Shown piece by piece: positions 4,861 through 20,948 of a DNA stretch of 37,343 bases; the first letter of the stretch is position 1; every line of letters starts with the position of its first letter. The DNA is from Alcaligenaceae bacterium (GTDB taxonomy: Bacteria; Pseudomonadota; Gammaproteobacteria; Burkholderiales; Burkholderiaceae_B): the NCBI GenBank assembly GCA_947378965.1, contig CANCMG010000038.1, positions 1 to 37,343 on the forward strand, in the 5' to 3' direction. The translations under genes and the position numbers were made by a program. The notes below the pieces were generated by a model. The model had not been told where the DNA came from. It saw nothing but the letters and a program-made list of their open reading frames with translations, and searched no databases.

Positions 4861-4886
4861 ACGACTCAAATAAAACTAAGCTGACT

Positions 4887-6146
4887 TTATTTGATGAGCA
4901 CAGCAGGTGACAGAGGAATTGAACCAGGAACTTTTGTCAGGGTCAACATTTGCGACAACATCACCAACACTTGATTAGTGTAAGTGTCGTTATTGTCATC
5001 ACGTGGTACAGAGTACGAGGTACCTTGGTAAGTAACGCTCATTAACGCGTTTGAAGAGCTAGTGCCTTTGTTAACAAGGAATAAAGGCTTCGACTTCGCG
5101 TAAATTTCTTCAATGTTTGAGTTGGCAGCAATTTTGTCAGAATCAACAACCCTGATCACACGGCCATCTGGAGCATTTTGTATATTGACCAATGCGCCCA
5201 AGAACTCAAACACGTTACGTACAGAACGCAGCTTAATGATCAAAGTCACTTCTGGCTTTGACTTGTCGACAACTGCGCTACCAGCTTTAGAACTCTTGCA
5301 ATATGCCGACTGAGCAACTCTGAACGACAACTGCTCATCGGCTGCCTGTTGCTGCAAGCAGATGCGAGCGTCAGGAGGCATCATTCTCATGACTTGGAAG
5401 CCATCACGTCCGCCAGCTAACTTGACAGGCACCAAGGCAGTCCCTGGGATAGAAGTCGCCGTCGCAATACCCTGCAGGCTACGATTAGCCGTCTCGGCAT
5501 CCATTGGGGCCGAAACAGGCATCATGCCTTGAGTTTGCTCAACGGTGATACCTGCACGCACCAAGTTGAACAACGTCCGTTGAAAGTCAACAAACTTTGG
5601 TGAGTAGGGATCATTGAAAAACTTAACCAGTGTCTTTCCTTGTGTATCTTGTCCCTCGATCGACTCGATGGCAAGCGAAAATAAAACGTCGCGTGTGGCG
5701 AGTTGTGAATTGCCTAAACTTGCAATCGCACCTGGCTTCAAGTCAGACAGAAACGACACCATAAAACTTGAGTTGTCTAGTGATGACTGTGTGAAATTGA
5801 AACTGTTATTCACCCCGAGCGATGCGTTACCGGCCACACTTGAACCGCCGATCGGTGAAAAGAAACCCGAAACTGACGATGGTGCAACACCGTAAATTGT
5901 CGGGCCTGCCCCCACCGAAGCGTTCACGCTGCCAGAACCCATGACAGAAGGCATGTCAAGAAAGCTGACAGGCATAGATTTTGAAGCGCGAACAATATTC
6001 AACAGCACATTGTCATTTGCGTATTGCTCGAGAACCTCGCGATAGGCCGAAGACATTTCGCGGAAACTTGTCGAATTTGTCAGACCTCCGCATCCCGACA
6101 GCACAGAGATCAATAAAAGCGGAACTAGCTTTAGCATTCTAGACAT
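4887..6146 (-). CDS. Uncharacterised lipoprotein, last gene of envelope cluster
   Basis: This 419-residue protein has a lipoprotein signal (hydrophobic run, then LSGC with lipidated Cys19). The mature N-terminus carries a distinctive conserved-looking stretch, YANDNVLLNIVRASKSMPV followed by SFLDMPSVMGSGS. A long Gly/Ser/Asn-rich section follows, and the C-terminal part includes a VRNVFEFLGALVN segment, VTYQGTSYSVP and a hydrophobic end. I recall uncharacterised proteobacterial lipoproteins of this general form but can name no family. The residue after the lipidated Cys is Gly, not Asp, so sorting to the outer membrane is expected. ATG at 6146 has GAGG 5 bp upstream. It is the last of seven co-directional genes, 94 bp after its neighbour. 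Function unknown. Confidence 0.75.
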   Translation of the reverse strand: MSRMLKLVPLLLISVLSGCGGLTNSTSFREMSSAYREVLEQYANDNVLLNIVRASKSMPVSFLDMPSVMGSGSVNASVGAGPTIYGVAPSSVSGFFSPIGGSSVAGNASLGVNNSFNFTQSSLDNSSFMVSFLSDLKPGAIASLGNSQLATRDVLFSLAIESIEGQDTQGKTLVKFFNDPYSPKFVDFQRTLFNLVRAGITVEQTQGMMPVSAPMDAETANRSLQGIATATSIPGTALVPVKLAGGRDGFQVMRMMPPDARICLQQQAADEQLSFRVAQSAYCKSSKAGSAVVDKSKPEVTLIIKLRSVRNVFEFLGALVNIQNAPDGRVIRVVDSDKIAANSNIEEIYAKSKPLFLVNKGTSSSNALMSVTYQGTSYSVPRDDNNDTYTNQVLVMLSQMLTLTKVPGSIPLSPAVLIK

Positions 6147-6180
6147 ATAAGCCTCATAAAAAATTGACTATTTTTGTTTA

Positions 6181-6208
6181 TAAAAGATAAAAGATAAAAG
6201 ATAAAAGA
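6181..6208. repeat. Perfect 7-bp tandem repeat (TAAAAGA x4)
   Basis: Four exact copies of TAAAAGA lie in the 94-bp gap between the small membrane protein gene and the lipoprotein gene, about 35 bp upstream of the lipoprotein start. Perfect short tandem repeats are prone to slippage and could affect an internal promoter or the mRNA leader here. Confidence 0.85.
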
Positions 6209-6240
6209 ACAGCCTAGACGGAACAACAAAAAACCAATCA

Positions 6241-6456
6241 CTAACTGACTTGCTTAAACCTCCACCAACTACTAGTTTGAATCTTTGCGCTTTTGGGTTG
6301 ATTCGCAGAAGGTTTAAAACTCAATAATAGATAAAAAATCAAAGGTGGTGTCAAAAAGAACGAAGCCAACAGAACACCCCAAAAGCCAATTCGACGATGT
6401 CTTCCATATGCAGCCACCAACACACAGAGTGTGTAGTACGCAATCGTTAATTCCAT
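6241..6456 (-). CDS. Small two-helix inner-membrane protein
   Basis: This 71-residue protein has two predicted membrane helices: roughly residues 2-16 (LTIAYYTLCVLVAAY) and 23-46 (GFWGVLLASFFLTPPLIFYLLL), linked by a basic GRHRR turn, then a short polar tail. Similar small proteins with a GFWGxLLxSFxLTP helix are widespread and uncharacterised, so no function is assigned. The ATG at 6456 has a strong AGGAGA site 6 bp upstream, which supports real translation. It lies 50 bp downstream of the SPFH gene and 94 bp upstream of the lipoprotein gene on the same strand, so it is probably co-transcribed and may be an accessory subunit of the membrane complex. Confidence 0.72.
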   Translation of the reverse strand: MELTIAYYTLCVLVAAYGRHRRIGFWGVLLASFFLTPPLIFYLLLSFKPSANQPKSAKIQTSSWWRFKQVS

Positions 6457-6506
6457 ATAGGTCTCCTAAATACTAAGTCGCTAATTTATGGTGGCAGGTC
6501 GAGCTT

Positions 6507-7745
6507 TTATTTTGAGGCTGCATTGGGGGCCGCAGCTCCGGGGGGAGGTGCGCCGGCAGCGGGGGCGGGAGCGCCAGCGGCAGGTGCAGGGGCACCACCA
6601 GCGGGTACGCCGCCAGCAGGGGCAGTAACCGCAGCTCCGCCACCAGCGGGTGCAGCAACAGCGGCTCCGCCACCAGCGGGTGCACCACCAGCAGATGCAG
6701 GTGCAGGTGCAGGTGCAGGTGCAGCAGCAGCAGGCCCAGCAGGTTTAAGACCGCCACTCGGACCAGCTGCCCCTGCCGGAGCCGCTGACGGAAGCGAGAC
6801 TGGAGTGACTGAATCCCCACCTAGAATTAGCGGCAACCCATTTGGTGATGACCCAAAAATGACAACTTTTGAGTTGGCAGACTCAGCTAATTTAAGTGTT
6901 GCTTCAATACCGCGGATTTTCAAATAATTATCCGTCAAGCCTGAGTTCACAATGTCTTGGTATTTTTTAATACCGCCCGCCTCAACCTCTTTACGCTCAG
7001 CCTCGAGACGTGCAGCCTGCACTTTAAACACGCCCGCCTCAGCGATCTGCGACTCTGCAATTTTGCTACGAATCGCAGCCTGTATTTCTGCTGGAAACTC
7101 TATCGATTCAAGCTGCACTGCTGTGATACGCAATAATCTGACATAGTCAAGACCAGGAGGCCCGAGCTTGTCTAGAATCACTTGATCAGACATAATCGCG
7201 ATTTCGCTCACGGCTTTTTCAAGCTGCTTCGTAAACGCCTCTTGCGAAGTCAATTCGGCAAACATCACTCGCGTCTTTCCGGTGACCTCTGGCAAAATCA
7301 CTTTCGTCACATAGTCAGGCCCGACAAATTTATGCAGCATCGGCAACCCGTACTTATTCACCTGAAATTGAAAAGACACCTTGATATCTGACCTCAGTTG
7401 ATCCTTGGTCAACACTTCCATTTCAATTTTCTTCATCTGCACTCGAGCGTCATACTGAGTGACCGTATTTAAGGGGAATACGATATTGACGCCCTCTCCC
7501 AAGATCTGGTCCATCGAAATACCGCCGAACAAGGGGCGATAAATCACACCAACAAAGCCAGCCGGAATGAGGATCACGACGCGTTGCCACAACACGACCA
7601 CGGCGATGGACGCGAGAATGACTGAAAAGGTTAGCCCAATATAATTGCGCGCAAACCAACCACTGATGGCAGAAACCAACCAAGTCAGCGGATAAAAGAT
7701 AAAATTCAATACCCGCTTACATATAGCTAGAAATCGACTTAGCAT
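6507..7745 (-). CDS. SPFH/Band 7 (prohibitin-like) membrane protein with low-complexity tail
   Basis: This is a 412-residue scaffold-type membrane protein. Residues about 14-55 hold two hydrophobic segments. A prohibitin-type SPFH domain follows, including IPAGFVGVIYRPLFGG, a VSFQFQV strand, LDYVRLLRITAVQLESIEFP and an Ala/Glu-rich coiled-coil region, then GGIKKYQDIVNSGLTDNYLK near residue 275. From about residue 310 the protein is almost only Ala, Pro and Gly. SPFH proteins form large oligomeric rings or cages at membranes and organise or regulate partner complexes. The gene follows the ABC exporter by 9 bp, so a functional link to that exporter is likely. The tail is unusual for the family and is encoded by repeated GC-rich DNA. 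The domain call is secure; the partner is inferred. Confidence 0.88.
   Translation of the reverse strand: MLSRFLAICKRVLNFIFYPLTWLVSAISGWFARNYIGLTFSVILASIAVVVLWQRVVILIPAGFVGVIYRPLFGGISMDQILGEGVNIVFPLNTVTQYDARVQMKKIEMEVLTKDQLRSDIKVSFQFQVNKYGLPMLHKFVGPDYVTKVILPEVTGKTRVMFAELTSQEAFTKQLEKAVSEIAIMSDQVILDKLGPPGLDYVRLLRITAVQLESIEFPAEIQAAIRSKIAESQIAEAGVFKVQAARLEAERKEVEAGGIKKYQDIVNSGLTDNYLKIRGIEATLKLAESANSKVVIFGSSPNGLPLILGGDSVTPVSLPSAAPAGAAGPSGGLKPAGPAAAAPAPAPAPASAGGAPAGGGAAVAAPAGGGAAVTAPAGGVPAGGAPAPAAGAPAPAAGAPPPGAAAPNAASK
6601..6720. repeat. 30-bp and 6-bp repeats inside the SPFH gene tail
   Basis: Blocks 6601-6630, 6631-6660 and 6661-6690 are successive copies of a 30-bp unit; the last two share the core CTCCGCCACCAGCGGGTGCA. 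From about 6697 to 6720 the unit shrinks to four copies of a GGTGCA-type hexamer. All period lengths are multiples of 3, so copy-number change would lengthen or shorten the Ala/Pro/Gly tail without a frameshift. Confidence 0.75.
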
Positions 7746-7754
7746 AATTTAATC

Positions 7755-9392
7755 TTAATGTTTTGCGTGAAGAGACTGACCGTTTTCCATGTAAATGACA
7801 TGATCTGCTAACTCGTAGTACTGGTCATCATGTGTAATCGCAATCACCGTCTTACCCAGCTCTCGCAACTTTGGAATAATTCGCTCATAAAACTCTTGTC
7901 TAAATTCTGGGTCCTGGTCTGCAGCCCATTCATCCAAAACAATGATTTGCTTCTTCTCAAGCAATGCGACCAGCAAAGCCAAACGCTTTCGCTGCCCCGT
8001 CGAAAAATTAAGGTCAGAGAAAATGCCATCATCAATGGCAACCTTGTTTTCCATTTGAAACAGAGTCAGCAGATCGTTGAGCTCTGCCTCATCAGTGACC
8101 GGTACGCCATACAATTTCTTAAACAAATAAAAGTCGCTAAATACCACCGCAAACAGATCTCGATAGGCTGCATTGCTTGGCTCAGCAATCGGTTGTCCAT
8201 TCACGAGCAACCTGCCAGACTTTGACTGATACAGCCCGAGCAATACACGCATCAAGGTCGTTTTACCAGAGCCGTTGTTACCTCGAATAAAATACACTTT
8301 ACCGATCTCAAACTCGTAACTGATCGGGCCAAGTGAAAATGATCGCGCGCCTCCATCCCCGCTGTGTACGTAGGTAATCTCTTCAAGGGCCAGCGTCTTA
8401 ATCTCTGAAAACTCAGTCAGCCCAGGCGCTGTTCGCTCAGTGCTTTCATACGAAAGTTTATCGCTCAGTTCTCGTAAATTACGAGCAGCCGCGTTTGCCA
8501 TCGTCATATTCGGCACCACAACAATTGCCGAAGATACTGAACTAGCTAAAAACAAGGCAGTCGTTGTCACTGTCAGCACATCCGACGAAAACTCAGGCGA
8601 GAAAATCGGCACGACAAAAATGATTAAACCAACCACCAGATACATTAGCATCTGTAAATAGGTGAAAAACTGTACAACATCTTGAACCAATTTTGTTTTT
8701 TCAGTTCTAACCACCCTCGCCTCGGCAATGAGATCGCGCGTCAATCCCAACGCTCGCTGCGAATTCATTTTCACTTCTTTATAACCACTTAAAAATGCTC
8801 CATACATCCCATTAACCTGCGCCTCTTTCACCGACAACACTCGAACACCACCGACCAACTTATTGAGTTCGATGACCCCAACAAAAGACACAATGGCAAT
8901 TGCGACTGACAGGATTAAACAGGCCGTCAACGATATTGTGGCCATGTAAAGCATCAGAAAGCACACTGTTAGCAAAGACTGAAACAGAGACAGTACCGAA
9001 TTGACTTGCTGAGATACTAACTCGGTGTCCCTGTTCAAGACTTCGAGGATGTAATCACGACCTAATTTGTCTACCTTTAGCAAATTAGAGCGAAACACAT
9101 CATGCATGATGCGAATTTTGAAGCGATAGATAAACTGTTGAGCCTTTGCAACGTTCTCTTTGTTCGCACGCTGGGCAGCCATCAAAAAAACCACAAAGAT
9201 GACAGCATACGCAACGAACATGAGCGTCACGCTTTCATTTTTTGAAACACTGGCTGCAGCCTTGTTAATCACCGCGATCAACAAAGTATTAAGAGTCCCT
9301 ACCAAACCTGCCAACAGACACAATTGCCTCAGGTGCTGAGGATTTGAGTCTGTCAAAAAGTTAATAAGCTCAGATTTAACTGGATTGCGCAT
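7755..9392 (-). CDS. Cyclic-peptide/siderophore-type ABC exporter (SyrD/PvdE-like)
   Basis: This 545-residue half-transporter carries an N-terminal six-helix membrane domain (about residues 20-300) and a C-terminal ATPase. Walker A is RGNNGSGKTT near residue 371, the signature is the atypical FSTGQRKRLAL near 462, and Walker B with extension is IIVLDEWAADQDPEF near 481-496. The TGQRKRLAL signature and DEWAADQDPEFR string are the marks of the cyclic peptide transporter subfamily (PvdE, SyrD), whose length is also about 550. Such proteins move a non-ribosomal or lipopeptide precursor across the inner membrane as homodimers. No peptide synthetase is in the window; the nearest candidate cargo source is the divergent PKS. 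It lies 49 bp after the DUF697 gene and 9 bp before the SPFH gene. Confidence 0.92.
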   Translation of the reverse strand: MRNPVKSELINFLTDSNPQHLRQLCLLAGLVGTLNTLLIAVINKAAASVSKNESVTLMFVAYAVIFVVFLMAAQRANKENVAKAQQFIYRFKIRIMHDVFRSNLLKVDKLGRDYILEVLNRDTELVSQQVNSVLSLFQSLLTVCFLMLYMATISLTACLILSVAIAIVSFVGVIELNKLVGGVRVLSVKEAQVNGMYGAFLSGYKEVKMNSQRALGLTRDLIAEARVVRTEKTKLVQDVVQFFTYLQMLMYLVVGLIIFVVPIFSPEFSSDVLTVTTTALFLASSVSSAIVVVPNMTMANAAARNLRELSDKLSYESTERTAPGLTEFSEIKTLALEEITYVHSGDGGARSFSLGPISYEFEIGKVYFIRGNNGSGKTTLMRVLLGLYQSKSGRLLVNGQPIAEPSNAAYRDLFAVVFSDFYLFKKLYGVPVTDEAELNDLLTLFQMENKVAIDDGIFSDLNFSTGQRKRLALLVALLEKKQIIVLDEWAADQDPEFRQEFYERIIPKLRELGKTVIAITHDDQYYELADHVIYMENGQSLHAKH

Positions 9393-9441
9393 CGGGATAC
9401 TTGTTGATTTGAAAAATAGGGGCCACTCGCGGTACGTGACC

Positions 9442-10608
9442 TTAAGCCTGTGCCTGCACGGTCTTGCCTTTAAACTTCAATTTACGTTTTTCAATTTGTG
9501 CTGCCATGTATTGCCTGATTTTTTCTGGCTGGAAGTCGTGCATTCGTCCATCGGCCTCAAAGTGGCTGATGAAGGCTGCACCAATGGCTTGACTCGTCAC
9601 ATAGGATATCGAGGGTTCTACCGCAAACATAAACACTGGACCGATGCCGGGCGCGAAGCGCACCATTTGCTTCGCAAGCACGCCCGCTAGCGTTTGCGTC
9701 GCTGCGCCACCTGCAACACCAGACGCTATCGCCACTGCGGCCTTGTGTTCGAAGTCGACCTGATACAGTTTACATAGGTCATAAATCATCTTTACCTGTA
9801 CGCCAGAGATTGCCGCCAAATCCACGAAGGGTGCCGGTATGAAGCTGACTGCGACTGACCATTTCGACCAACGCGCAACAATCTTTTGCGCCGACAGTTT
9901 TGTTCGGGTGGCCTCTGCCTTCAAAGACACGCGCGCTCGGCTCAATTCGTTTTGAAAAATATCTTCAGCAGTTAAATACGGACCAGATAACGCAAGCCCG
10001 CCAGTCGGCTGGCTCAGCACCCCTGGTTGCTCGAGCACCTTAACCGGGGTACACGGATGACTAATAATTTCTTCTTTGCGATTTGGGGTCAACACTGAAG
10101 ACCGAGCAATTTCTGCTGCCATCAACTGTTCTGCCGTCTGAGTGCCGGCATGATTGGCCCCCTTCACATCATTGAGTGGCTGGGTCATTACCGCAGCTTT
10201 CAGGTCCAACGGATTGGCACGAGTCGTTTTCGCGACTTGGGGTTGAGTTTGGGGTTGAGTTTGAACTTGAGCTTGAGCGTTATGAGCCGAGTCGCTCGCA
10301 GCAATCTCTTCTTTAGAAACCGGAGCGGTAGGACCTGCCTTGGTCGCCATCACTTCGTTAGCGGCAACAATATTTTTTTTGCGCGGCCGCGCGGCCTTAT
10401 CAACTTTTGCAGTCGTATCAACTTTTGCAGTCTTCTCAACTTTTGCAGTCTTCTCAACCTTCGCGGTTGTATCAACTTTTGCAGTCTTCTCAAACTTCGC
10501 GGTTGTATCAACTTTTGCAGCCTTCTTTACCTTTACAGCCGGCTTAGCGCGAGTCGAGATTTCGTCTAGCGGATTCTTTAGGATTGTTTTGCGTGATTGC
10601 GTGACCAT
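9442..10608 (-). CDS. DUF697-domain membrane protein with Lys-rich repeat
   Basis: This 388-residue protein has two parts. Residues 26-73 are eight consecutive hexapeptides of the type KVDTTA, KVEKTA or KFEKTA, then the basic stretch RPRKK, giving a highly basic, histone-H1-like tail. A disordered Gln/Thr/Pro-rich linker follows. Residues about 235-370 match DUF697 (YcjF-type): WSVAVSFIPAPFVDLAAISGVQ, then MIYDLCKLYQVDF, a Gly/Ala-rich hydrophobic hairpin and FISHFEADG. DUF697 proteins are membrane-associated and often linked to GTPases or stress responses; their function is unclear. The short motif NPLD occurs twice (residues about 12 and 140). The ATG is 3 bp after the parA stop, with AAGG overlapping that stop, so the two are probably translationally coupled. 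Confidence 0.85.
   Translation of the reverse strand: MVTQSRKTILKNPLDEISTRAKPAVKVKKAAKVDTTAKFEKTAKVDTTAKVEKTAKVEKTAKVDTTAKVDKAARPRKKNIVAANEVMATKAGPTAPVSKEEIAASDSAHNAQAQVQTQPQTQPQVAKTTRANPLDLKAAVMTQPLNDVKGANHAGTQTAEQLMAAEIARSSVLTPNRKEEIISHPCTPVKVLEQPGVLSQPTGGLALSGPYLTAEDIFQNELSRARVSLKAEATRTKLSAQKIVARWSKWSVAVSFIPAPFVDLAAISGVQVKMIYDLCKLYQVDFEHKAAVAIASGVAGGAATQTLAGVLAKQMVRFAPGIGPVFMFAVEPSISYVTSQAIGAAFISHFEADGRMHDFQPEKIRQYMAAQIEKRKLKFKGKTVQAQA
10390..10533 (-). repeat. 18-bp tandem repeat encoding eight hexapeptides
   Basis: Eight in-frame copies of an 18-bp unit encode K-(V/F)-(D/E/K)-(T/K)-(T/A)-A hexapeptides. On the plus strand the repeated strings are CAACTTTTGCAGTC-like. Units fall into two types, DTTA and EKTA, in a mixed order, suggesting expansion by duplication of pairs as well as single units. 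Confidence 0.88.
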
Positions 10609-10611
10609 GAT

Positions 10612-11376
10612 TTACCTTGATTGATGTGCGATCACTTCGCGTGCGAGCGCACGAAAATCTTCTGCAACAATTGAGTTCGGCTGATACTGCAATATGCTTT
10701 TTCGGAACGAAGGTGCTTCTGCCAGTCGAATGTTTTCTCGAATACGCGCAACTAAAACTTTCTCACCAAATCTTTCAATCAATGCCTCGATAATGTCTTT
10801 CGAATGACGAGTGCGTTGATCAACCCGACACGGCAACAACCCTAGCAACGATAACTGAGGATTTAACACCTCCTTCACGTCATCAAACGTCTGCATCAAC
10901 TGCGCGACGCCCGACAGCGTCATCACATGCGTTGTCACAGGGATTAACACTTGCTGAGCCGCGCACAATGCATTCAAGGTCATTAAACCCAGTGTGGGTG
11001 GCGTGTCAATCAACACATAGTCAAACGCCAAGCTCTCAAGCGAGGCCAAGCGCCGTTTCAATCGCGTTTCAACCGCCAGTTCGCCTGCCAAAGACTTTTC
11101 GATGCTGGCTAAACTTCGGCTACCAGCCAACAGGCTTAGCCCTTCTGTGTTGGTATCGACTAACAGGCCAGCGGCCGCAACCTTAGTAGTAAAAAGTTCA
11201 AACACCCCACGCTCGTCGTTATCTGCACCGAGCCACTGACTCGCATTTGCCTGAGGATCAAGATCGATCAGAAGAACCTTTTGTTTAAGTTCTGCTAGCG
11301 CCGCCGCCAGATTAACGGTGGTCGTTGTCTTAGCACAACCTCCCTTTTGATTGGCAACCGCAATTGTGATGGTCAT
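10612..11376 (-). CDS. Orphan ParA/MinD-family ATPase
   Basis: This 254-residue ATPase has the deviant Walker A motif KGGCAKTTT (Lys11 and Lys16), the Walker A' region LLIDLDPQANASQWLG, Walker B YVLIDTPPTLG and the ParA-typical PVTTHVMTLSGVAQLM segment. There is no N-terminal DNA-binding extension. ParA proteins make dynamic gradients on nucleoid DNA or membrane to position plasmids, chromosomes or large protein assemblies. No parB and no obvious centromere repeats are beside it, and the neighbours encode envelope proteins. A role in positioning or assembling a membrane complex is therefore more likely than DNA segregation. It starts 6 bp after the binding-protein gene and precedes the DUF697 gene by 3 bp. 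Confidence 0.92.
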   Translation of the reverse strand: MTITIAVANQKGGCAKTTTTVNLAAALAELKQKVLLIDLDPQANASQWLGADNDERGVFELFTTKVAAAGLLVDTNTEGLSLLAGSRSLASIEKSLAGELAVETRLKRRLASLESLAFDYVLIDTPPTLGLMTLNALCAAQQVLIPVTTHVMTLSGVAQLMQTFDDVKEVLNPQLSLLGLLPCRVDQRTRHSKDIIEALIERFGEKVLVARIRENIRLAEAPSFRKSILQYQPNSIVAEDFRALAREVIAHQSR

Positions 11377-11382
11377 GGTTGT

Positions 11383-12174
11383 TTATTTAGGCCTCGTCAA
11401 GCTCTCATTAAAGACCTCGCGGTACTTACTCAGCAACGCAGGGTAGCGACGCGCACTATGGGCTGCACTTAGTTGGTCTGCAAACTTTTCTCGCACTAGG
11501 TTCCCGCACTTTGATCTTTTAGAGAACGCCAGAAACCCCTCAGATTGCGTCGGATAGGTGTTCAAGATTTGCAGCGTCGAGCCAAGATTTCGAATCATCA
11601 TCTGCTCGTAGACCGCATTTTCATAGCCCAAAATATAATCTACCTTTTTATCGATTAACAGATCAATCACTTTGTCGATGCTAGGTGCCTTAATCAGCTT
11701 TAAATTCTTTTGCACAAACTGCCCAAAAAAACCATCACCATAGGTCTCACCAGCGCCAGCTGCTCCAGACAGTTTCGTCAGTTCATCTAGCTTATTCAGT
11801 GGGAAGGCATCGCCACGCCTGACCACGACGTAGAGAAATTGGCTAGACATGGCTGGGCGTACGTACTCAAGGTACCGCTCGCGCTCTTCAGACCAATTGG
11901 CTGAAAATACCACATCAACCTCGCCGCGATACACTGCCGCCAAGGCTTCGCGCCATGTTGGGTATGGGCGAACCTCAATGTTTGTAACGCCCGCTGCGCG
12001 AGCTATGTTAGAGGAGAACTCAACCGCAGCGCCTATCAGCTTGCCCTCGCTTATCCAAGAAGAGGGAGCTGCAGCCGGGGGCCCAGTCATCGTGAGGGTT
12101 GAGCATACTTGCGCCATGCCCGACCCGCTTGTCAAGCATAGCAACAATGCTAAGAAGGGCCATAATTTTTTCAT
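11383..12174 (-). CDS. Periplasmic solute-binding protein, family 3 (SBP_bac_3)
   Basis: The protein has 263 residues from the ATG at 12174, with a signal peptide (KKLWPFLALLLCLTSGSGMAQ). The mature part is a bilobed extracellular solute-binding family 3 domain: SEGKLIGAAVEFSSNIAR, PYPTWREALAAVYRGEVDVVF, NWSEERERYLEYVRP and a YILGYENAVYEQMM segment. Family members bind amino acids or similar polar compounds. No permease or importer ATPase is nearby, so it may act as a sensor or as the receptor of this envelope cluster. A reading frame extends upstream to a TTG at 12207 across a hairpin, and a GTG at 12183 is possible; 12174 gives the most normal signal peptide. It is the first gene of the seven-gene unit. 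Confidence 0.85.
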   Translation of the reverse strand: MKKLWPFLALLLCLTSGSGMAQVCSTLTMTGPPAAAPSSWISEGKLIGAAVEFSSNIARAAGVTNIEVRPYPTWREALAAVYRGEVDVVFSANWSEERERYLEYVRPAMSSQFLYVVVRRGDAFPLNKLDELTKLSGAAGAGETYGDGFFGQFVQKNLKLIKAPSIDKVIDLLIDKKVDYILGYENAVYEQMMIRNLGSTLQILNTYPTQSEGFLAFSKRSKCGNLVREKFADQLSAAHSARRYPALLSKYREVFNESLTRPK

Positions 12175-12394: not shown

Positions 12395-13231
12395 ATGAAA
12401 TGTCTTTTTGCGCCCATCCTAGTGCTGACTAGCGTTTTGTGTTCGGTCGCTCTTGCGCAACCCGTGACAAACTCCACGCCCGCTGCGACCGTAGTTCCAT
12501 CAAATACACAACAGGCTGCCTCATCAACACAGCCGCAAGGTTCAAACTCGCAGAACAACTCCGCTTCGGTAGTCCAACCTGATAATTGGCAATGCATTTT
12601 ACACGCAGCATACTTCAATATTTGGCGGCTTGAAGTGATGATAACTACGCTTTCAACGTACCGCTTACAAAACTGCCCCGCGTCGCGTATGGATCGAGTC
12701 ACGAGCGCCTCTGTAGCCGCCCAATTAAGAACGGTTTCAAGCTTCTCTACCATTGTCAAGGGTGGTTCGCATCAGCAGGTAATGGACATCAATTTGACCC
12801 CAGTTTCATCCGAGTACTTCTGGGTGAGCGACCTTAAATTTGCTGTGGCAAGCTCGGCGCATGTCAGCCTCAAGCAATTATTCCAGACCACCAAACTCAA
12901 AAGCACAAAAAACTTGGCGGCGGCAAACTACATTCCATTTAAAATGCATGGAGACATGCATTTCATCTGGAATACTGGCACGCTAGCGCATCGGCTTGTT
13001 TCACCCAAAGGTGAAACGTACATCATGACTAGCTATACCCAAGAAGTGCAGCCTATTTTGACGCGCGACACCCTCTCAAACCTAGACACCATGCTTAGGC
13101 TTCCACCTGGCTGGAAGTTTGAAAATTATTTTCTAGACAGAAATATCGTAGTTCGTGCGGGCGTTGCCAACGACAACTCTGTAGAGATGATCTTTGACGA
13201 CTTGAATAACAACTATGTGCTGTACGAATAG
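12395..13231 (+). CDS. Exported protein of unknown function
   Basis: This 278-residue protein has a clear signal peptide ending ALAQ, then about 40 residues rich in Thr, Ser, Gln and Asn that look like a disordered spacer. The mature part includes a SVAAQLRTVSSFSTIVKGG segment, a HVSLKQLFQTTKL segment and a C-terminal part with GETYIMTSYTQ, LSNLDTMLRLPPGWKFENYFL and VEMIFDDLNNNYVLYE. The last stretch, an LP.GW motif followed by a D(D/E)L.N.Y end, reminds me of a secreted uncharacterised family, but I cannot name it. There is no strong ribosome binding site. It is divergent from the envelope cluster and 142 bp before the PKS, so it could belong to either. Confidence 0.7.
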   Translation: MKCLFAPILVLTSVLCSVALAQPVTNSTPAATVVPSNTQQAASSTQPQGSNSQNNSASVVQPDNWQCILHAAYFNIWRLEVMITTLSTYRLQNCPASRMDRVTSASVAAQLRTVSSFSTIVKGGSHQQVMDINLTPVSSEYFWVSDLKFAVASSAHVSLKQLFQTTKLKSTKNLAAANYIPFKMHGDMHFIWNTGTLAHRLVSPKGETYIMTSYTQEVQPILTRDTLSNLDTMLRLPPGWKFENYFLDRNIVVRAGVANDNSVEMIFDDLNNNYVLYE

Positions 13232-13373
13232 CAAGTCAAACGCAAACCGCCTGCAAGCTGTCTTTAGGGTCGACTGCCCTTGCCGCCCATGGAAAGTGAC
13301 GGTTTTTGTGAGGTTACGACACAGACGAAGGGTAAAATAGCAGGTACCACTTTTGACGCGCCGCGCCCACCCT
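13232..13373 (+). promoter_or_regulatory. Upstream region of the PKS gene
   Basis: TAAAAT at 13333-13338 is a possible -10 box; the best -35-like hexamer, TTGTGA at 13306-13311, is 21 bp away, so the match is weak. If used, transcription would begin near 13345, only about 8-29 bp before the candidate starts at 13353 (TTG) and 13374 (ATG). AGG at 13342-13344 could serve the TTG start; no Shine-Dalgarno sequence precedes the ATG. Confidence 0.3.
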
Positions 13374-16300
13374 ATGAGCACACTTCCTGCGATTCGACAT
13401 GGCTCTGCGTTGCCTGATCGAGTCAGCAAACTTCAAAATTTATCGACGGCCCTTCTCGCTGTCTCGCACTCAACACCGATCGTTTTCATCGACAGCCAAG
13501 GCCTAGAGAACAATCTCACCTATGGCCATTTAGTTGATTCGGCCAAATGCATTGCAGCAGGGCTCAAAGAGCAAAGACTGCAGCCTCGTCAAAAAGTTTT
13601 ATTGCAGTTGTCACTCAGCGAAGATATTTTGCCCGTCTTCTGGGGCTGTCTATTTGCAGGGCTTGAGCCAATCGTCGTGCCGATTCCGGTCAGTTACGAT
13701 TTAGAGAGTCGCGCGCTTGAACAATTGATTCATATCTGGAACTTGTTAGAGCAACCACTGATCTGCACGACTGCGGCACTCGCCCCGACGCTGAGTGGCT
13801 CGAGTCGCTTTCCTGAGCTACAAGACGCTCGTATCGCAAGCATGGAGAGTCTTCGGCAACACGCTCCGATCGAAACGATATACCGAGCAACATTAAGTGA
13901 TGTCGCTTTTTATGTGTTGTCCTCTGGCAGTACTGGGCTGTCAAAGGCCGTTGAACTGACGCACGGCAATCTCTTATCACGGGCGATCGGCACCAACCTG
14001 TTGTGTGGCAGCCAACAAAGCGATGTCATTTTAAGTTGGTTGCCCTTTGATCATATCGGCAACATCTCGGCGTATCACATCAGCCCTGCTCTAGAGGGCA
14101 GCAAACTTGTTTACGCACAAAAAGAATTCGTTTTAGCGCGACCTCTGCGTTGGCTCGATTTGATTGACAAGCACCGTATCACGCATGGCTGGGCCCCCAA
14201 TTTTGCGTTTGCTCTGGTCAGCAAGGCGCTCAAAAACCAAAACAACGGGCAATGGGATTTGTCGTGCGTCATAGGCTTACTCAGTGCGGGCGAATTAATC
14301 GCGCATTCGACAGTGACCGAATTTCTCGAGGCGGTTCGCCCTTATGGCTTGCGTCGTGAAAGCCTGATTTCAGCCTTCGGCATGGCAGAAACCTGTTCAG
14401 GGGTCTCTTATCACTTGCCTCCGGCTGGGCAGTCAATCAAATTTGTGCATATTGATCGCCATCAGCTAAGTGGTTCGATTCGACACGTTGCACCAAACGA
14501 CTCAACCTGCATTTCGTTTGCCAGTTTAGGGCCTGTTATTCCAGGCATGTCGATGCGGATTGTTGACGAACACAATCAAGTGGTCTCTGAAGAGACTGCC
14601 GGCAGATTTCAGTTGCGGGGCGCTGGCCTGATGCCAGGCTACTATCGCAACCCTCAAGCTAATCAAGCGTTTGTTGAGGATGGTTGGTTTGATACGGGCG
14701 ATGCCGCCTTTATCTCAAATGGCGAGCTGGTCATGCTTGGCCGCGTGGGGATGGGGATTATCGTCAATGGTGCGAACTTATCAAACATTGAGATTGAGGC
14801 TGCGGCCGAACAAGTAGAGGGTCTCGAGCCCTCGTACACGGCTGCTTGTGCAGCGTTTGCACCTGGCACAGACAGGCTTCACCTTGTTGTGTTTTTTCAC
14901 ACCTTGGTCACCGACGAGCGTGAATTAGCGAGTTTATTCAAACAAATTCAATCAAAGCTCACTCAACACGTTGGTATCAAAGCCGACTTCCTGATCCCGC
15001 TTGGCGCTGAAGCGATCCCAAAAACCGCGATCGGAAAAATCCAGCACAAGCAACTCAGTGCACGTTTTCAGCAAGGTGATTATGCAGCGGTGATCGAGCG
15101 CGTCGAAGCGCTGCGCCTGTTGTTTCAAGAGGCACCGAGTGCCTCGGTGCTCCCAGCCTCAGAAATCGAACAACAAATCGCTTCAATCTGGCAAGATGTG
15201 TTGGGCATTCCCCAGGTTGGCGTCCAAGATAACTTCTTTGAGTTAGGCGGCGATTCGTTGTCGTTGGTACAAGCCCACGAGCGGCTCATCGAAATTTTTG
15301 GCCCTACCCTAACACTCGTTGATTTGTTTACTTCACCGACGATCGAAATGCTCGTCAAACAGTTATCGGGTGAAAACACTCAGGCAAGTCCGACAGAAAA
15401 GGGGCAAGCGCGAGCCAACGCACGTCATAGTCACCAGGCAACAGGTGCGAGCAAAGACATCGCGGTGATCGGTATGTCCTGCCGCTTTCCAGGCGCAGAT
15501 GACATTGAGACTTTCTGGAAAAATCTGGCCGCCGGTGTTGAGTCGATTACTTTCTTTGACGACAACGACCTGCTCAAGAGTGGTTTTTCGCGCGAAGTCT
15601 TTGATCGACCCGATTATGTCAAAGCCAGTCCGCTGATTTCGGATGCTCGAGGCTTTGATGCCGAGTTCTTTGGCTATTCTGCACGTGACGCAGAGCTCAT
15701 GGATCCTCAGCAACGCCTGTTTCTCGAATGCGCCTGGGAAGCCTTCGAGGTTGCTGGCTACGATCCTACCGCTTACCCAGGGGTAACGGGTGTGTATGCG
15801 GGTGCTGCCATGAACACCTACTTGCTGAATAACGTGCTTCCAAATCGAAGCATGCTAGATTCGCAAGATGATCTGAATGTTGCAACGCTTGATTCAATGG
15901 GCGGCTTCATGCTCATGGTTGCAAATGATAAAGACTACCTCACCACCCGAGTCTCGTATAAGTTGAACCTCGGTGGGCCGAGCATCAATGTGCAAACCGC
16001 CTGTTCAACAGGGTTGGTCACCGTGCATATGGCCTGTCAGTCTTTATTGTCTGGTGAAACCGATCTCTTTCTGACTGGCGGTGCGTCGGTGCAGTCTCCT
16101 CAGCACGCGGGCCATCTGTATCAACCAGGCATGATTGTCACGCCTGATGGGCACGTTCGGTCCTTTGATGCCGAGGCGCGCGGGACAATCTTTGGTAGCG
16201 GGGTCGGTGCCATCTTGCTCAAGCGGCTTGATGATGCTGTACGCGACGGTGATCATATTTTTGCTGTTGTCAAAGGATCCGCCGTCAACAATGATGCAGG

Positions 16301-19300
16301 CGCAAAAGTTGGCTATATGGCTCCGAGCAGCGATGGGCAAGCGGTCGCTGTCGCAGAAGCGATCGCGGTCGCGAACGTATTGCCCGAAACGATTGGATTT
16401 GTTGAGGCGCACGGCACGGGAACTGAGATCGGCGATCCGATTGAGCATGATGGCTTGGCTCAGGTATTTCGCGCGCAAACACAAGCGATTGGTTTTTGCG
16501 CACTGGGTTCAGTCAAAACCAACGTTGGGCACTTGCAGATTACGTCAGGCACCGCGGGCTTTATTAAGACCGCACTCGCCCTGCATCACAAGCTCATCCC
16601 ACCTCTGCTGAATTTCAAGACACCCAATCCAGCCTTAAAACTTGAACAGAGTCCGTTTTTCATCAACACAGAGGCCTGTGAATGGAAGACCACTGGCACG
16701 CCACGTCGAGCGGGCGTTAACTCTTTAGGGATCGGTGGCACCAATGCACATGCGATTCTTGAAGAAGCACCGACTGTCAGTCGAGTTGCAAATACAAATG
16801 AGCGTACTGCACATGCCTTGATGTTGACGGCTCGAAATGAAGTCGCCTTACGCCAATACGCGGGGCGCTTTGCGCGCTATTTCACCGAGCACCCAGAAGT
16901 TAATCTTGCAGATGTCTGTTTCACTGCCAATACTGGGCGCAAGATATTTGATCAACGCGTTTCAATCGTTGGTGCAACGGCGCAAGACTTTATTGCGCAA
17001 CTAACGTCCATCGAAAAGAGTGAGTCATGTGCCGGCGCCGTTCAACACGACGCCAAAGCCAACTCAAAAAGCAAAATTGGCTTTCTCTTTACGGGCCAAG
17101 GCTCGCAATACCCAGACATGGGGCGGCATTTATTCGAAACTGAGCCGGTCTTTCGCGAGCAGTTAAACCTTTGCGCTGAGCTGTTTTTGCCATTGCTTGA
17201 AAAGCCACTGTTAGAGATCATGTTCGATAACGAGTCGGCAAATGGCCTGATTCATCAAACTGGTTATGCGCAACCTGCCTTATTTGCGCTTGAATATTCC
17301 CTCGCAAAATTTTGGCAAGCACTCGGAGTCGTGCCACACGCCGTCATGGGTCACAGCCTTGGTGAATACGCCGCAGCGTGTTTTGCAGGGGTCATGAGCC
17401 TTGCCGATGCGGTGCGCATGGTGGCTGGTCGCGCCAATCTCATGCAAGCCTTAGAACAGTCTGGCGAGATGTGGGCTGCGTTTACCAGTGCAGCCACGGT
17501 TCGGCCTCTACTCGCCGGTGTCAGTCAAGATGTTTCGATTGCGGCTGAAAATAGCCCAGACAACACCGTGCTTTCAGGTTGCAGCGCGCCCTTAGCTGAA
17601 GTGATTGCCAAGCTGGCAGCGCTAGGCATTCGCACGCAAAAACTCAACACCTCGCATGCCTTTCATTCAAGGCTGATGGAGCCCATGCTCGATCAGTTTG
17701 AACAAATCGCCCAAAGCGTAGCGTTTCAAAGCCCCCAACTCACGTTGATCTCGAATTTAACTGGTACCGCTGCCTCAGATGAGGTAACCATGCCTCAATA
17801 CTGGCGGCAACATATCCGGCAGCCGGTTAAGTTTCAAGCGGGTCTCGAACAGATGGCTGCGCTGGGCTGCCAGGTTTTTGTAGAAATCGGCCCTCGACCA
17901 ACCCTGACTGGGCTTGGTACGCAATGTCTACCCGATGATTGCCTCTGGTTACCAAGCATCAAACCGTCTGAAGACAACTGGATAACGCTTCTGAAGAGTT
18001 TGGCGCAACTTGCCGTGCTTGGTTTAGTCGATTTGAAAAACTTAGATCGTGAACAACAGCGACTGCGCCTGCCGCTTCCGACTTATCCATTTCAACATAC
18101 ACCTTACTGGCTTGAACGACCCGCGGCGCAGGCAACCGCGACTCATCAGCAAGCACAAACGCTGCTCGGACAGCGACTACAAATTCCAACTATTTCGAAC
18201 ACGATTTTTCAAAACGACTTTAATGCAGTCGCCCTGCCTTTTCTAAAAGATCACCTAATACACGGTGAAGTGGTTGTCTCGGGCGCCTGTCACGTCACAA
18301 TGCTGTTAGACGCGGCTCAACTCTTATGCAAAGAACAACCCTTTACGCTCCAGAATATTCACTTCCCCGAGCCCTTAGTCATTGAAAAAGATCAGACACG
18401 CACCGTTCAAGTCGTGATCGAGAAAAATGCGCAAGGTCGCCGTGAAGCCCAATTAATCAGTTTTGATGCAGCGCTTGCTGGTGACTTAATTCTCACTAAT
18501 CAGCACGCTCAAGCAGACATTGTTGAAACAACCGTGGCTGTGAACGAGGCACTTGCGCTTGCACACATACGTTCGGGCTTAACTCAGACCGTCAATATCG
18601 AAGCGTTTTTGCACGAATTGGCAGGCAGAAAAATTGAACTGGGCGCAAGCTATCGCTGGGTAAAAAGCATCCAACGTAATGCTCGCGAAGCCCTTGGCGT
18701 GATGACAGAACCCTCGTCGCGCTCTGGCTTGGCCATGCAACAACGCCACCCTGGCATGCTCGATGCAGGTTTCACGCTTCTGTTAGCAATGGGGATGCAC
18801 CAAGAAGGCACCACATGGCTACCCTTCGCGATTGAAGCCGTGCGAGTCCTCAAACAAAAACATGAGGTTCCGGCGTATGCCTACCTCGCGCTGCGTGACG
18901 GCAGCAATAACGAGCATGCAACGGCAGACGTCAAACTGTGCGATGCCGCTGGAAACGTATTAATTGAATTAGTCGGTTTGCAAGCCCGTCAGGCCGATCT
19001 GTCTGCACTGAATCGCAGTGCTCAACGCAAAGTGACCGCGTTAATGCACGAAATCGTCTGGGAGCCGATCGAACTGACGGCCTCGCTCGACGTCGAGTCA
19101 TCACGTGAAGAGCCTTGGCTGATCTTGGCTGACCGTCTTGGGGTTGGCCATTTGCTTTCCCAGCGCCTCGAACGGGCGGGTCAGTCGTGCCTGATTGTGC
19201 GCGCCAAGGGGGATGGAGTCGCTCAGGTCAGCACGTCGACCCACACGATTGATCCCTTAAGCGCCACAGCCTTTTCAAATTTAATCCAATCACTTGGCCC

Positions 19301-20948
19301 CAAGCCTAAGCTCGCTGGCATTATCAATTTATGGCCCTTGGATGCTTCAACCGATGGCGTGTCCAACACCATTGCAGCACAATTGACGTCTGGCGCTACG
19401 GTGTTGCATTTACTGCAGGCGTGTGTCAAACATAATGTCGTGATCAGCCAGCGCTTCTGCTTGGTCACGGATCGCGCCCAAGCCTTGACAGGCGATACAT
19501 TTCCCATCAATAGCGCGCAGTCAACGCTTTGGGGGATCGGTATGACTGCGGCACTTGAGCACCCTGAACTTAAAGTCACGTGCGTTGACTTGCAATTAGC
19601 GGTTCCTGAACGTGCCGCACAGCAACTGTGGCACACAATGCACCTCAAGCAAAACGAGTGGCGACTGGCATACCGGGCTGAGCAAGCGTTCGTTGCGCGA
19701 ATCAATCGTGTTCGAGAGGCAACCACACCTGAACAGCAACCACTTGTGTTTTCAGCGCATATTACTTACGTTGTGACCGGTGCAACCGGTGGTCTCGGAC
19801 TTGCTACCGCCGCTTGGTTAGTTGAACACGGTGCTCGCCACCTATTGCTATTAAGCCGTCAACCGCTTTCAACCCAGGCCCAGCAAGCGATCAACACGCT
19901 GAGCCAACAAGGCGCGAGCGTCGCACACCTGTGCGTTGACATCGCCGATCGCCAGTCACTAGAAAGCGCACTGCTGTCAACACAAGCCGAGGGTGCACGT
20001 AAGCTAGGCATCCTCCACTGTGCTGGCGTCTTAGACGATCACCTCTTGATCGACCTGCAGTGGTCTAACTTTGATAACGCCTACTCTGCCAAAGTATTAG
20101 GAACATTAAATCTTGACGAGTTAACTCGGCAGCTTGATGTTGACTGCTTTGTCATGTTCTCGTCGGCAGCGTCACTGCTTGGTAACCGCGGCCAGGCCAA
20201 CTATGCTGCAGCCAATAGCTTCATGGACGCGATCGCCCATCAACGCAAACTTGCTGGTCTGCCCGCCCTGAGCATTAACTGGGGCCCTTGGGCATCGGTG
20301 GGGATGGCGCAGTCTAATTCGAAAATTTCTAGACAACTTTCGGCACAGGGATTTACGGCGCTCAGCACTCAGTTGGCTTTACAGGCGCTGGGTAGCAGTT
20401 TGCTTGGGACTCGAACTCAGGTGGGCGTGATTGATTGTCAGTGGGATCAATACCTTCAAGGTGCTGAACAGCTTCAGTCTTTTTTAAGCAAAGTCGCGAC
20501 CGCGCCAATCAACACGCAAGAACAACAACGCCAAGATGCACAGTCAGCTATTGTTGAGCAGTTTGCTCGAGCCTCTACGGCCGAACGCCTAAGCTTGTTG
20601 ACCACCATCGTGAACACTCAGATTCGTAAGATTTTAGGACTTGCCGAAACGATGGCGGTGCCTGAGGATCAAGCCCTGACCGATCAAGGCTTTGACTCAC
20701 TGATGGCGGTACAACTGACCAATGCGGTCGGTCGAATGCTTGGGCAACGACTGCCTGTGAGCCTGGTGTTCAACTACCCATCGCCAAAAGCGCTTTCCTT
20801 ATATCTTTTAGAATTAATCAACGGTCAACTTGCAACACCTGAACAGGCTGCGGCAACGGATAGTGGCGCCAAGGCTTCTCAAACGAGTTCAAGCGACCGT
20901 GCTCGCTCTTTGCTCGACGATCTTGATAACCTGCTTGAACAATCATGA
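13374..20948 (+). CDS. Modular polyketide synthase (AMP ligase-ACP-KS-AT-DH-KR-ACP)
   Basis: From the ATG at 13374 this is a 2524-residue type I PKS with a loading module and one extension module. The order is: an acyl-AMP ligase of FAAL type (about 20-590; SSGSTG at 183, GWAPNF, GMAETCSG); ACP1 (GGDS, Ser628); KS (about 665-1100; Cys877 in TACSTG, His1013, His1053); AT (Ser1328 in GHSLG, malonyl-type HAFH at 1428-1431); DH (His1627, Asp1797; the usual Pro of HxxxGxxxxP is Ser); KR (GATGGLG at 2136, Tyr2277, and the LDD signature of B-type reductases); and ACP2 (Ser2442). No enoylreductase and no terminal thioesterase are present. The expected product is a starter acid extended once to a 3-hydroxy or 2-enoyl thioester. 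TTG at 13353 is an alternative start. The next gene, a thioesterase, overlaps by 4 bp. Confidence 0.95.
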   Translation: MSTLPAIRHGSALPDRVSKLQNLSTALLAVSHSTPIVFIDSQGLENNLTYGHLVDSAKCIAAGLKEQRLQPRQKVLLQLSLSEDILPVFWGCLFAGLEPIVVPIPVSYDLESRALEQLIHIWNLLEQPLICTTAALAPTLSGSSRFPELQDARIASMESLRQHAPIETIYRATLSDVAFYVLSSGSTGLSKAVELTHGNLLSRAIGTNLLCGSQQSDVILSWLPFDHIGNISAYHISPALEGSKLVYAQKEFVLARPLRWLDLIDKHRITHGWAPNFAFALVSKALKNQNNGQWDLSCVIGLLSAGELIAHSTVTEFLEAVRPYGLRRESLISAFGMAETCSGVSYHLPPAGQSIKFVHIDRHQLSGSIRHVAPNDSTCISFASLGPVIPGMSMRIVDEHNQVVSEETAGRFQLRGAGLMPGYYRNPQANQAFVEDGWFDTGDAAFISNGELVMLGRVGMGIIVNGANLSNIEIEAAAEQVEGLEPSYTAACAAFAPGTDRLHLVVFFHTLVTDERELASLFKQIQSKLTQHVGIKADFLIPLGAEAIPKTAIGKIQHKQLSARFQQGDYAAVIERVEALRLLFQEAPSASVLPASEIEQQIASIWQDVLGIPQVGVQDNFFELGGDSLSLVQAHERLIEIFGPTLTLVDLFTSPTIEMLVKQLSGENTQASPTEKGQARANARHSHQATGASKDIAVIGMSCRFPGADDIETFWKNLAAGVESITFFDDNDLLKSGFSREVFDRPDYVKASPLISDARGFDAEFFGYSARDAELMDPQQRLFLECAWEAFEVAGYDPTAYPGVTGVYAGAAMNTYLLNNVLPNRSMLDSQDDLNVATLDSMGGFMLMVANDKDYLTTRVSYKLNLGGPSINVQTACSTGLVTVHMACQSLLSGETDLFLTGGASVQSPQHAGHLYQPGMIVTPDGHVRSFDAEARGTIFGSGVGAILLKRLDDAVRDGDHIFAVVKGSAVNNDAGAKVGYMAPSSDGQAVAVAEAIAVANVLPETIGFVEAHGTGTEIGDPIEHDGLAQVFRAQTQAIGFCALGSVKTNVGHLQITSGTAGFIKTALALHHKLIPPLLNFKTPNPALKLEQSPFFINTEACEWKTTGTPRRAGVNSLGIGGTNAHAILEEAPTVSRVANTNERTAHALMLTARNEVALRQYAGRFARYFTEHPEVNLADVCFTANTGRKIFDQRVSIVGATAQDFIAQLTSIEKSESCAGAVQHDAKANSKSKIGFLFTGQGSQYPDMGRHLFETEPVFREQLNLCAELFLPLLEKPLLEIMFDNESANGLIHQTGYAQPALFALEYSLAKFWQALGVVPHAVMGHSLGEYAAACFAGVMSLADAVRMVAGRANLMQALEQSGEMWAAFTSAATVRPLLAGVSQDVSIAAENSPDNTVLSGCSAPLAEVIAKLAALGIRTQKLNTSHAFHSRLMEPMLDQFEQIAQSVAFQSPQLTLISNLTGTAASDEVTMPQYWRQHIRQPVKFQAGLEQMAALGCQVFVEIGPRPTLTGLGTQCLPDDCLWLPSIKPSEDNWITLLKSLAQLAVLGLVDLKNLDREQQRLRLPLPTYPFQHTPYWLERPAAQATATHQQAQTLLGQRLQIPTISNTIFQNDFNAVALPFLKDHLIHGEVVVSGACHVTMLLDAAQLLCKEQPFTLQNIHFPEPLVIEKDQTRTVQVVIEKNAQGRREAQLISFDAALAGDLILTNQHAQADIVETTVAVNEALALAHIRSGLTQTVNIEAFLHELAGRKIELGASYRWVKSIQRNAREALGVMTEPSSRSGLAMQQRHPGMLDAGFTLLLAMGMHQEGTTWLPFAIEAVRVLKQKHEVPAYAYLALRDGSNNEHATADVKLCDAAGNVLIELVGLQARQADLSALNRSAQRKVTALMHEIVWEPIELTASLDVESSREEPWLILADRLGVGHLLSQRLERAGQSCLIVRAKGDGVAQVSTSTHTIDPLSATAFSNLIQSLGPKPKLAGIINLWPLDASTDGVSNTIAAQLTSGATVLHLLQACVKHNVVISQRFCLVTDRAQALTGDTFPINSAQSTLWGIGMTAALEHPELKVTCVDLQLAVPERAAQQLWHTMHLKQNEWRLAYRAEQAFVARINRVREATTPEQQPLVFSAHITYVVTGATGGLGLATAAWLVEHGARHLLLLSRQPLSTQAQQAINTLSQQGASVAHLCVDIADRQSLESALLSTQAEGARKLGILHCAGVLDDHLLIDLQWSNFDNAYSAKVLGTLNLDELTRQLDVDCFVMFSSAASLLGNRGQANYAAANSFMDAIAHQRKLAGLPALSINWGPWASVGMAQSNSKISRQLSAQGFTALSTQLALQALGSSLLGTRTQVGVIDCQWDQYLQGAEQLQSFLSKVATAPINTQEQQRQDAQSAIVEQFARASTAERLSLLTTIVNTQIRKILGLAETMAVPEDQALTDQGFDSLMAVQLTNAVGRMLGQRLPVSLVFNYPSPKALSLYLLELINGQLATPEQAAATDSGAKASQTSSSDRARSLLDDLDNLLEQS

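Follow-up and report, generated by a model that had tools for sequence, protein, structure and literature searches.

A conserved DUF697, exporter and SPFH gene unit predicted to serve export and spatial organisation in a polyketide synthase cluster of a freshwater Alcaligenaceae bacterium

We report on a seven-gene unit located on the minus strand, from 12174 down to 4887, of a 37,343-nucleotide stretch of DNA from an Alcaligenaceae bacterium (GCA_947378965.1, contig CANCMG010000038.1; the whole stretch is hereafter the window). Comparative sequence analysis leads us to predict that the unit belongs to a polyketide synthase (PKS) or nonribosomal peptide synthetase (NRPS) gene cluster, as its arm for export and organisation. 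The window is one whole contig (C38) of genome G000, which amounts to 4.5 Mb in 189 contigs and whose genus matches Sheuella/Zwartia, freshwater Alcaligenaceae. An earlier, sequence-only reading had taken the unit for a self-standing envelope cluster; its gene order, spacing and family calls are borne out below, whereas its self-standing character gives way to a biosynthetic context set by divergent genes at 12395-21724, which that reading had missed.

Gene content, conservation and biosynthetic context

All seven open reading frames (ORFs) are present and follow one another in the order SBP_bac_3 protein, ParA, DUF697 protein, ATP-binding cassette (ABC) exporter, SPFH protein, small membrane protein (TM2) and predicted lipoprotein (LIP), with intergenic gaps, recomputed from the coordinates, of 6, 3, 49, 9, 50 and 94 bases. 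The lead gene (11383..12174) encodes an SBP_bac_3-type protein with a signal-peptide-like start (PF00497, 38.4 bits against a cut-off of 26.4), and the second a ParA-type ATPase with an intact KGGCAKTT Walker A motif (10612..11376; AAA_31, 167.3 bits). The third gene product (9442..10608; PF05128, 37.6 bits, cut-off 27.7) carries a long N-terminal low-complexity region ahead of its DUF697 domain (residues 236-347, 9568..9903, from Pfam), the fourth is an exporter of the cyclic-peptide export family (7755..9392; TIGR01194, 298.1 bits, cut-off 286.2), and the fifth is an SPFH (Band 7) protein with an Ala/Pro/Gly tail (6507..7745; PF01145, 81 bits, cut-off 23.6). TM2, 71 residues long (6241..6456), shows a single segment exceeding the applied hydropathy threshold, and LIP (4887..6146) spans 419 residues and carries a lipobox-like LSGC; no Pfam or NCBIfam model matched either of them above its cut-off.

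The divergent plus-strand genes begin 220 bases from the unit. They encode F4, a co-conserved predicted secreted protein matching no Pfam family (12395..13231); a PKS of 2531 residues (13353..20948), in which Pfam recognizes AMP-binding, phosphopantetheine (PP), ketosynthase (KS), acyltransferase (AT), dehydratase (DH), ketoreductase (KR) and PP domains and whose loading domain is presumably a fatty acyl-AMP ligase (FAAL); and a discrete thioesterase (20945..21724; PF00975, 155.4 bits). This association was followed across relatives, where L numbers denote fetched genomic stretches, G numbers denote genomes and the own-genus sample comprises 32 genomes. Stretches were chosen by their DUF697 (or LIP) match, and the frequencies of SPFH and NRPS/PKS genes describe those loci rather than all genomes. 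The own-genus stretches fetched contain 27 DUF697-ABC gene pairs, from 24 of the 32 genomes, and 15 of these pairs show matching PKS/NRPS sequence (only pieces of about 290 residues at 30% in L053 and L060). MbtH (PF03621) or a CmlA-type hydroxylase was found with nine more, so that 24 of the 27 pairs are accompanied by PKS/NRPS sequence or such a marker; neither kind was seen in L037, L055 and L058, on contigs of 3 to 8.5 kb. The synthases themselves vary, from the PKS of the window with its near relatives to a KS-AT-KR PKS in L047 and a condensation domain in L099, and we read these sequences as a cassette that stays while its product changes.

Within the genus the arrangement is tightly constrained. 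An SPFH gene follows the exporter in all 21 own-genus pairs whose contig continues beyond it; among the short contigs of these metagenome-assembled genomes, five stop before SPFH (L033, L036, L040, L057, L059) and L055 retains it as a stub. ParA precedes the pair in 23 of the 25 testable loci (the exceptions being L053 and L060), with L049 and L055 stopping before the position of ParA, and TM2 was matched in 13 of the 27 pair loci. The gap between DUF697 and ABC genes ranges from -4 to 87 bases over the 27 pairs, that between ABC and SPFH genes from -23 to 18 bases over 21, and ParA lies within 14 bases of the next gene in 23 of 23 cases. Because these ranges are so narrow, the gene order reflects more than chance, and the constant geometry upholds the earlier proposal of an operon-like arrangement, as one conserved unit. 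Promoter and terminator scans performed no better than shuffles (11 versus 9.9, standard deviation 3.6; 14 versus 10.6, standard deviation 2.9). ORFs of relatives were called by a simple longest-ORF script, so their starts may be wrong and some genes missed; those recovered by tblastn or re-listing were DUF697 in L147, L184, L185 and L198 and TM2 in L146-L149.

The genome of the window holds a second DUF697-ABC-SPFH cassette, without ParA, on contig C59 (L053, G000:C59:3000-22900, positions 6946-12906), near a second SPFH gene, an F4 homologue and members of the histidine-kinase, response-regulator and phosphopantetheinyl transferase families. The exporters of the C38 and C59 cassettes are 93% and 97% identical to their counterparts in genome G027 and 47% identical to each other. 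Since each cassette is far closer to its G027 counterpart than to the other, the block is inherited as a unit. In a first sample, DUF697 was matched in 27 of the 32 own-genus genomes and in one of 69 others.

Over the 268 family genomes searched, the own genus included, DUF697 matched 35. All four stretches from g20 and g28 (L146-L149) present DUF697, TM2, ABC and SPFH genes followed by two synthetase genes, and no ParA, LIP or F4 was found in them; TM2 is assigned to the core because it sits within this unit, and its homologues adjoin the core in L146-L149 and L183-L185. A single scan of three weak family-level matches (L150-L152) showed DUF697 alone. At the order level, eight stretches (L183-L190) contain SPFH in three cases and PKS/NRPS-like sequence in five: L184 encodes a hydroxylase, an NRPS, DUF697, a thioesterase, TM2, ABC, SPFH and a phosphopantetheinyl transferase; L185 a PKS, DUF697, SPFH, ABC, TM2 and a thioesterase; L183 DUF697, TM2, SPFH, two ABC proteins and a PKS-like piece; and L186 and L187 an NRPS/PKS with DUF697. 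Among 13 class-level stretches, SPFH occurs in two and PKS/NRPS-like sequence in three, one of them having both. At the phylum level, where nine stretches were fetched of 12 strong DUF697 matches outside the class, SPFH is present in seven: L212 combines DUF697, SBP_bac_3, ABC and SPFH, and L208-L210, from another class, bring NRPS, DUF697 and SPFH together, while L206 holds DUF697, a TIGR01194 ABC exporter, a thioesterase and PKS/NRPS, and L207 DUF697 with a TM2-like ORF on the opposite strand. The core without ParA thus recurs beside NRPS/PKS genes in other Burkholderiales, and DUF697-SPFH pairs recur in other classes. The idea that the seven genes always travel together has to be dropped: the recurring core is DUF697, TM2, ABC and SPFH, and ParA, LIP and the SBP_bac_3 protein vary.

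In L204, L205 and L211, DUF697 and SPFH genes stand beside large ABC transporters whose N-termini look, by eye, like C39 peptidases, so that the platform may serve peptide export too; the name NHLP for these transporters is tentative, the best score to NHLM_micro_ABC1 being 168.9 against a cut-off of 853.3. L205 also encodes a Peripla_BP_6 protein.

The same distribution bears on whether the block instead serves surface structures or the gliding motility of Zwartia, for instance as an apparatus that secretes slime or a surfactant. Z. vadi, Z. panacis and Z. hollandica, listed as gliding-positive in the available part of PMC10535154, which also records no flagella seen in Z. vadi, all carry the block. 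The gliding test described there is spread in 0.3% agar, core relatives outside the genus adjoin NRPS/PKS clusters, and eight of the 32 genus genomes are without a DUF697-ABC pair (three of them, G009, G018 and G030, having none in the stretch fetched), and we accordingly give this explanation very little credence.

Several further genes recur around these loci. A third kind of DUF697 gene adjoins a gene of family F14, a phosphopantetheinyl transferase by its L047 member, in six of seven loci (L065, L066, L068, L069, L070, L071); L054, from the genome of the window, has the third-kind DUF697 gene with no adjoining F14. A DUF6072 gene lies near the loci of one group (L045:3589-3924, PF19549; L046, L051, L061 and L062 by family F25). 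Within the window, three homologous predicted secreted proteins of family F7 are encoded at 3708-4661, 26478-27449 and 33241-34257, which resemble tripartite-tricarboxylate receptors.

ParA and its predicted partner

ParA is highly conserved (mean column identity 69%), and its KGGCAKTT, DLD and DTPP motifs, which we take to be the deviant Walker A with its signature lysine, Walker A' and Walker B, are invariant in 11 sequences, placing it among ParA/MinD ATPases. Its best solved matches are 8ray ("ParA family protein") and 1wcv ("segregation protein"). The seven proteins include no ParB family member to complete a ParABS system, parS sites not having been searched, and the NF041546 ParA_partition model scores ParA at 115, below its cut-off of 180. 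The genome of the window encodes one further close ParA (41%) and yields one weak match.

A basic motif, (R/K)KT-x3-NPL, marks the gene directly after ParA. In the window, residues 1-215 of the DUF697 protein comprise 33 lysines or arginines and 21 aspartates or glutamates (isoelectric point 9.8); the protein starts MVTQSRKTILKNPLDEI and carries RKTILKNPL at residues 6-14 (10567..10593, minus strand), the predicted ParA-contacting peptide. The pattern is exact in 21 of 23 own-genus ParA loci and, outside the genus, in L109 and in L099, where it begins at residue 56; counting the variants of L042 (RPSTIGTNPL) and L043 (RPNTIGSNPL), all 25 loci have this conserved and positively charged N-terminal peptide in the gene after ParA. 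In six loci (L045, L046, L048, L051, L058, L059) ParA is present and the DUF697 protein is without the basic start; there a separate protein, F19 (239-293 residues), is encoded between ParA and DUF697 and has, at its own start or close to it, MATTRxKKTxxxNPL or similar forms. The pattern gave 24 matches among 821 ORFs from 68 stretches, 23 of them in post-ParA genes and one inside an NRPS; six-frame examination of the eleven stretches without this ParA (L053, L060, L146-L149, L183-L187) returned only that one chance NRPS match.

In the available parts of PMC7993993 and PMC10241942, activators of ParA/MinD ATPases are described as cargo domains fitted with a modular, positively charged extension at the N-terminus. 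The arrangement of the motif resembles the modular N-terminal peptide of such ParA-activating partners, and the DUF697 protein (or F19) is likely to be the partner of ParA. In L186 (positions 4573-6269), which belongs to another family, a different ParA (344 residues, 29% identical) is flanked by an NRPS gene and a DUF697 gene; the DUF697 product there starts MSDSQKKPPRRR, with KKPPRRR near its start, and this single case suggests an independent recruitment of ParA.

ParA could alternatively regulate the locus or tether it or the membrane, for example through transertion, leaving the core as a synthesis-export platform with no positioning of cargo. Cores devoid of ParA (L053, L060, the g20 and g28 stretches L146-L149, and L183-L185) are what such a role would allow and make ParA an add-on to the core, and DUF697 could itself attach to DNA through its basic, low-complexity region. 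We nevertheless consider this unlikely: motif and ParA co-vary, the split version with F19 included, ParA retains the residues of a cycling ATPase, and a second ParA type has come to lie between an NRPS and a basic-start DUF697 gene in L186. The earlier suggestion that ParA serves placement is plausible. ParA accompanies the core in most testable own-genus loci and in L099 and L109, and is absent from the several cores just named.

Proposed mechanism and competing explanations

We judge it on balance probable that the unit serves the PKS cluster as its membrane and spatial-organisation arm, with a scaffold that couples the megasynthase to its exporter and a ParA that distributes the resulting platform. 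In this model the PKS and the discrete thioesterase would make a lipid-like product, which the TIGR01194 exporter would move into the periplasm. Held in the membrane by a single segment, the SPFH protein would scaffold exporter and megasynthase together in a physical complex, and the periplasmic SBP_bac_3 protein, F4 and the lipoprotein would handle the product, sense it or pass it towards the outer membrane. The DUF697 protein would act as an adaptor, its C-terminal domain engaging the exporter and the scaffold and its basic N-terminal RKT-x3-NPL peptide contacting ParA and presumably stimulating its ATPase activity; ParA, in turn, would use the nucleoid to spread, space or partition the platforms. 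The sequence comparisons establish, on strong genetic evidence, which genes are present, their order and conservation, the exporter family, the PKS/NRPS link and the coupling of the motif to ParA; the complex, its localisation, the stimulation of ParA, the nature of the product and the outer-membrane step are predictions of the model.

The export step agrees with the family membership of the transporter, which passes the curated TIGR01194 model ("cyclic peptide export ABC transporter"), as do the exporters of L146 (288.7 bits) and L206 (343.2 bits). We take SyrD and PvdE as names for this exporter family, PvdE presumably belonging to TIGR01194. The top NCBIfam model for the window exporter, NF007813 (PRK10522, multidrug ABC transporter), gives 317.5 bits and falls short of its cut-off of 604. 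In the SPFH protein, the Band 7 match is complemented by an N-terminal hydrophobic segment at residues 42-60, and the solved proteins that match it best are prohibitins.

Periplasmic ligand-binding proteins turn up repeatedly near the core, SBP_bac_3 in the window and L212 and Peripla_BP_6 in L197, L201, L205 and L208, and some relatives add F13, with a substrate-binding protein domain, and F15, with a weak permease-like match. Such proteins would be expected if the unit mainly took up or sensed the secreted product or its metal complex, with the SBP_bac_3 protein and the lipoprotein capturing it, SPFH and DUF697 stabilising the membrane machinery and the exporter being one part of the whole. 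No pair of permease and ATPase, as in binding-protein-dependent uptake, and no outer-membrane receptor was recognised among the seven proteins, however; their sole ABC protein is the exporter, and F15 lies below its Pfam cut-off (21.7 versus 26.4), which leaves a primary role in uptake improbable.

F4 has 21 members in 21 stretches, the window included, and LIP forms a conserved family (A5, 33 rows); no solved relative was found for either by sequence at a meaningful E-value. Their AlphaFold2 models have a mean predicted local distance difference test score (pLDDT) of 71.5 for LIP and 77.7 for F4. Residues 64-124 of LIP are conserved, of low confidence in the monomer model and marked by two stretches of alternating hydrophobicity; residues 70-120 (5787..5939, minus strand) could, speculatively, form a beta-hairpin that makes a pore on oligomerisation. 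A fold search with the LIP model, which bears on a CsgG-like lipoprotein pore, gave no Protein Data Bank (PDB) match at E <=0.001, this region of the model being of low confidence. The trans-envelope platform proposed earlier keeps its exporter and SPFH scaffold, and a complex reaching across the envelope is put forward here as conjecture.

LIP family copies also stand away from the cassette, and distant relatives have unrelated surroundings. Over the 268 family genomes LIP was matched in 29, of which 27 belong to the own genus and two to genus g72. In L140, from g72 (G167:C20:1-14000, positions 2-3357), an SPFH tail (66% identical) stands at the contig start, and homologues of F4, TM2, thioesterase and LIP come after it; this is probably a further cassette truncated where the contig stops. 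In the genome of the window, L144 (G000:C125:1-10630, positions 4669-6042) holds a LIP copy away from the cassette, beside a 1455-residue NRPS/PKS-like ORF. A LIP-profile scan of named genomes returned 40 loci, 14 of which (L095-L098, L100-L107, L110, L111) show no ParA, DUF697 or SPFH, and LIP was rejected as a marker of the system; among these 14, weak NRPS/PKS-like matches occur in L097, L100 and L110, and thioesterase, phosphopantetheinyl transferase and F4 matches in L104.

Several observations weigh against the organising platform as we propose it, beginning with the cores that are devoid of ParA. Five of the 32 own-genus genomes show no DUF697 match (G002, G014, G017, G024, G029), and G014, G017 and G029 are listed as 99-100% complete. 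The order-level stretches L188-L190 contain DUF697 without SPFH or PKS/NRPS, and nine of the 13 class-level stretches show neither. No exporter was matched within the L208-L210 stretches, and that of L212 falls below the TIGR01194 cut-off (184.4 versus 286.2). The LIP and F4 models have no PDB match at E <=0.001 and are not used as support, and a basic N-terminus can equally bind nucleic acid or membrane.

A bolder formulation, which we advance tentatively, is that of a new bacterial "factory" organelle, in which a megasynthase-exporter platform would sit in a dedicated SPFH cage and be distributed across the nucleoid by a ParA of its own, DUF697 serving as modular adaptor. The DUF697-SPFH part would then assist natural-product export generally in Pseudomonadota (that of NRPS/PKS clusters and perhaps of C39-type peptide exporters), ParA having joined it at least two times, as the present family and as the different ParA of L186.

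Comparison with known systems

How giant PKS and NRPS enzymes are arranged in space and linked to export has yet to be settled; the clues in print that we know of, discussed below, are siderosomes associated with the membrane, a single transporter that tethers a synthetase and a single SPFH protein detected by proximity labelling. Here, genes for an exporter and for a predicted scaffold, adaptor and positioning ATPase adjoin those of the synthase, and they do so in cultured Sheuella amnicola and Zwartia species as well, which makes the question directly testable. If the proposed mechanism is true, it would assign a role to DUF697, which is a domain of unknown function, and add a further kind of cargo to those of ParA. 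Literature searches, with most subscription journals outside their reach, found among the matches listed no paper describing this gene set, as had been stated before, or these scaffold and partition proteins in such a role, and none joining DUF697 with nonribosomal peptides or with SPFH; PMC11960670 is the nearest precedent. The parts are of known kinds; their combination and its repeated PKS/NRPS link look new.

Prohibitin-type SPFH assemblies share with the SPFH protein of the unit a Band_7 domain and an N-terminal membrane segment; the unit differs in its natural-product cluster context, and its SPFH protein may likewise form a ring. The cereulide system differs in being Gram-positive, and we know of no dedicated SPFH, DUF697 or ParA in it. 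It is like the proposed platform in that an ABC transporter ties the biosynthetic enzyme to the membrane, CesCD tethering the Ces NRPS and being essential for production in the available part of PMC7527721. Pyoverdine export through PvdE likewise pairs an NRPS cluster, with an MbtH-like protein, and an ABC transporter classed for modified cyclic peptides, and siderosomes have been proposed as a membrane-associated synthetase complex with periplasmic steps; the product is another one, and the part of the source at hand names no SPFH, DUF697 or ParA (PMC6206403). The balhimycin exporter Tba offers a natural-product ABC exporter close to an SPFH protein, paraslipin, for which a membrane microdomain was proposed in the part of PMC11960670 available; that link is one of proximity labelling, the position of the paraslipin gene not having been checked, whereas the SPFH gene of the unit adjoins its exporter gene. 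Lastly, the cargo-positioning systems McdAB, PomXZ and ParC resemble the unit in combining a ParA-type ATPase with a partner that has a conserved basic start, as far as the available parts of PMC7993993 and PMC10241942 describe them; in the unit, the cargo would be a membrane megasynthase-exporter platform and the partner the DUF697 protein or F19.

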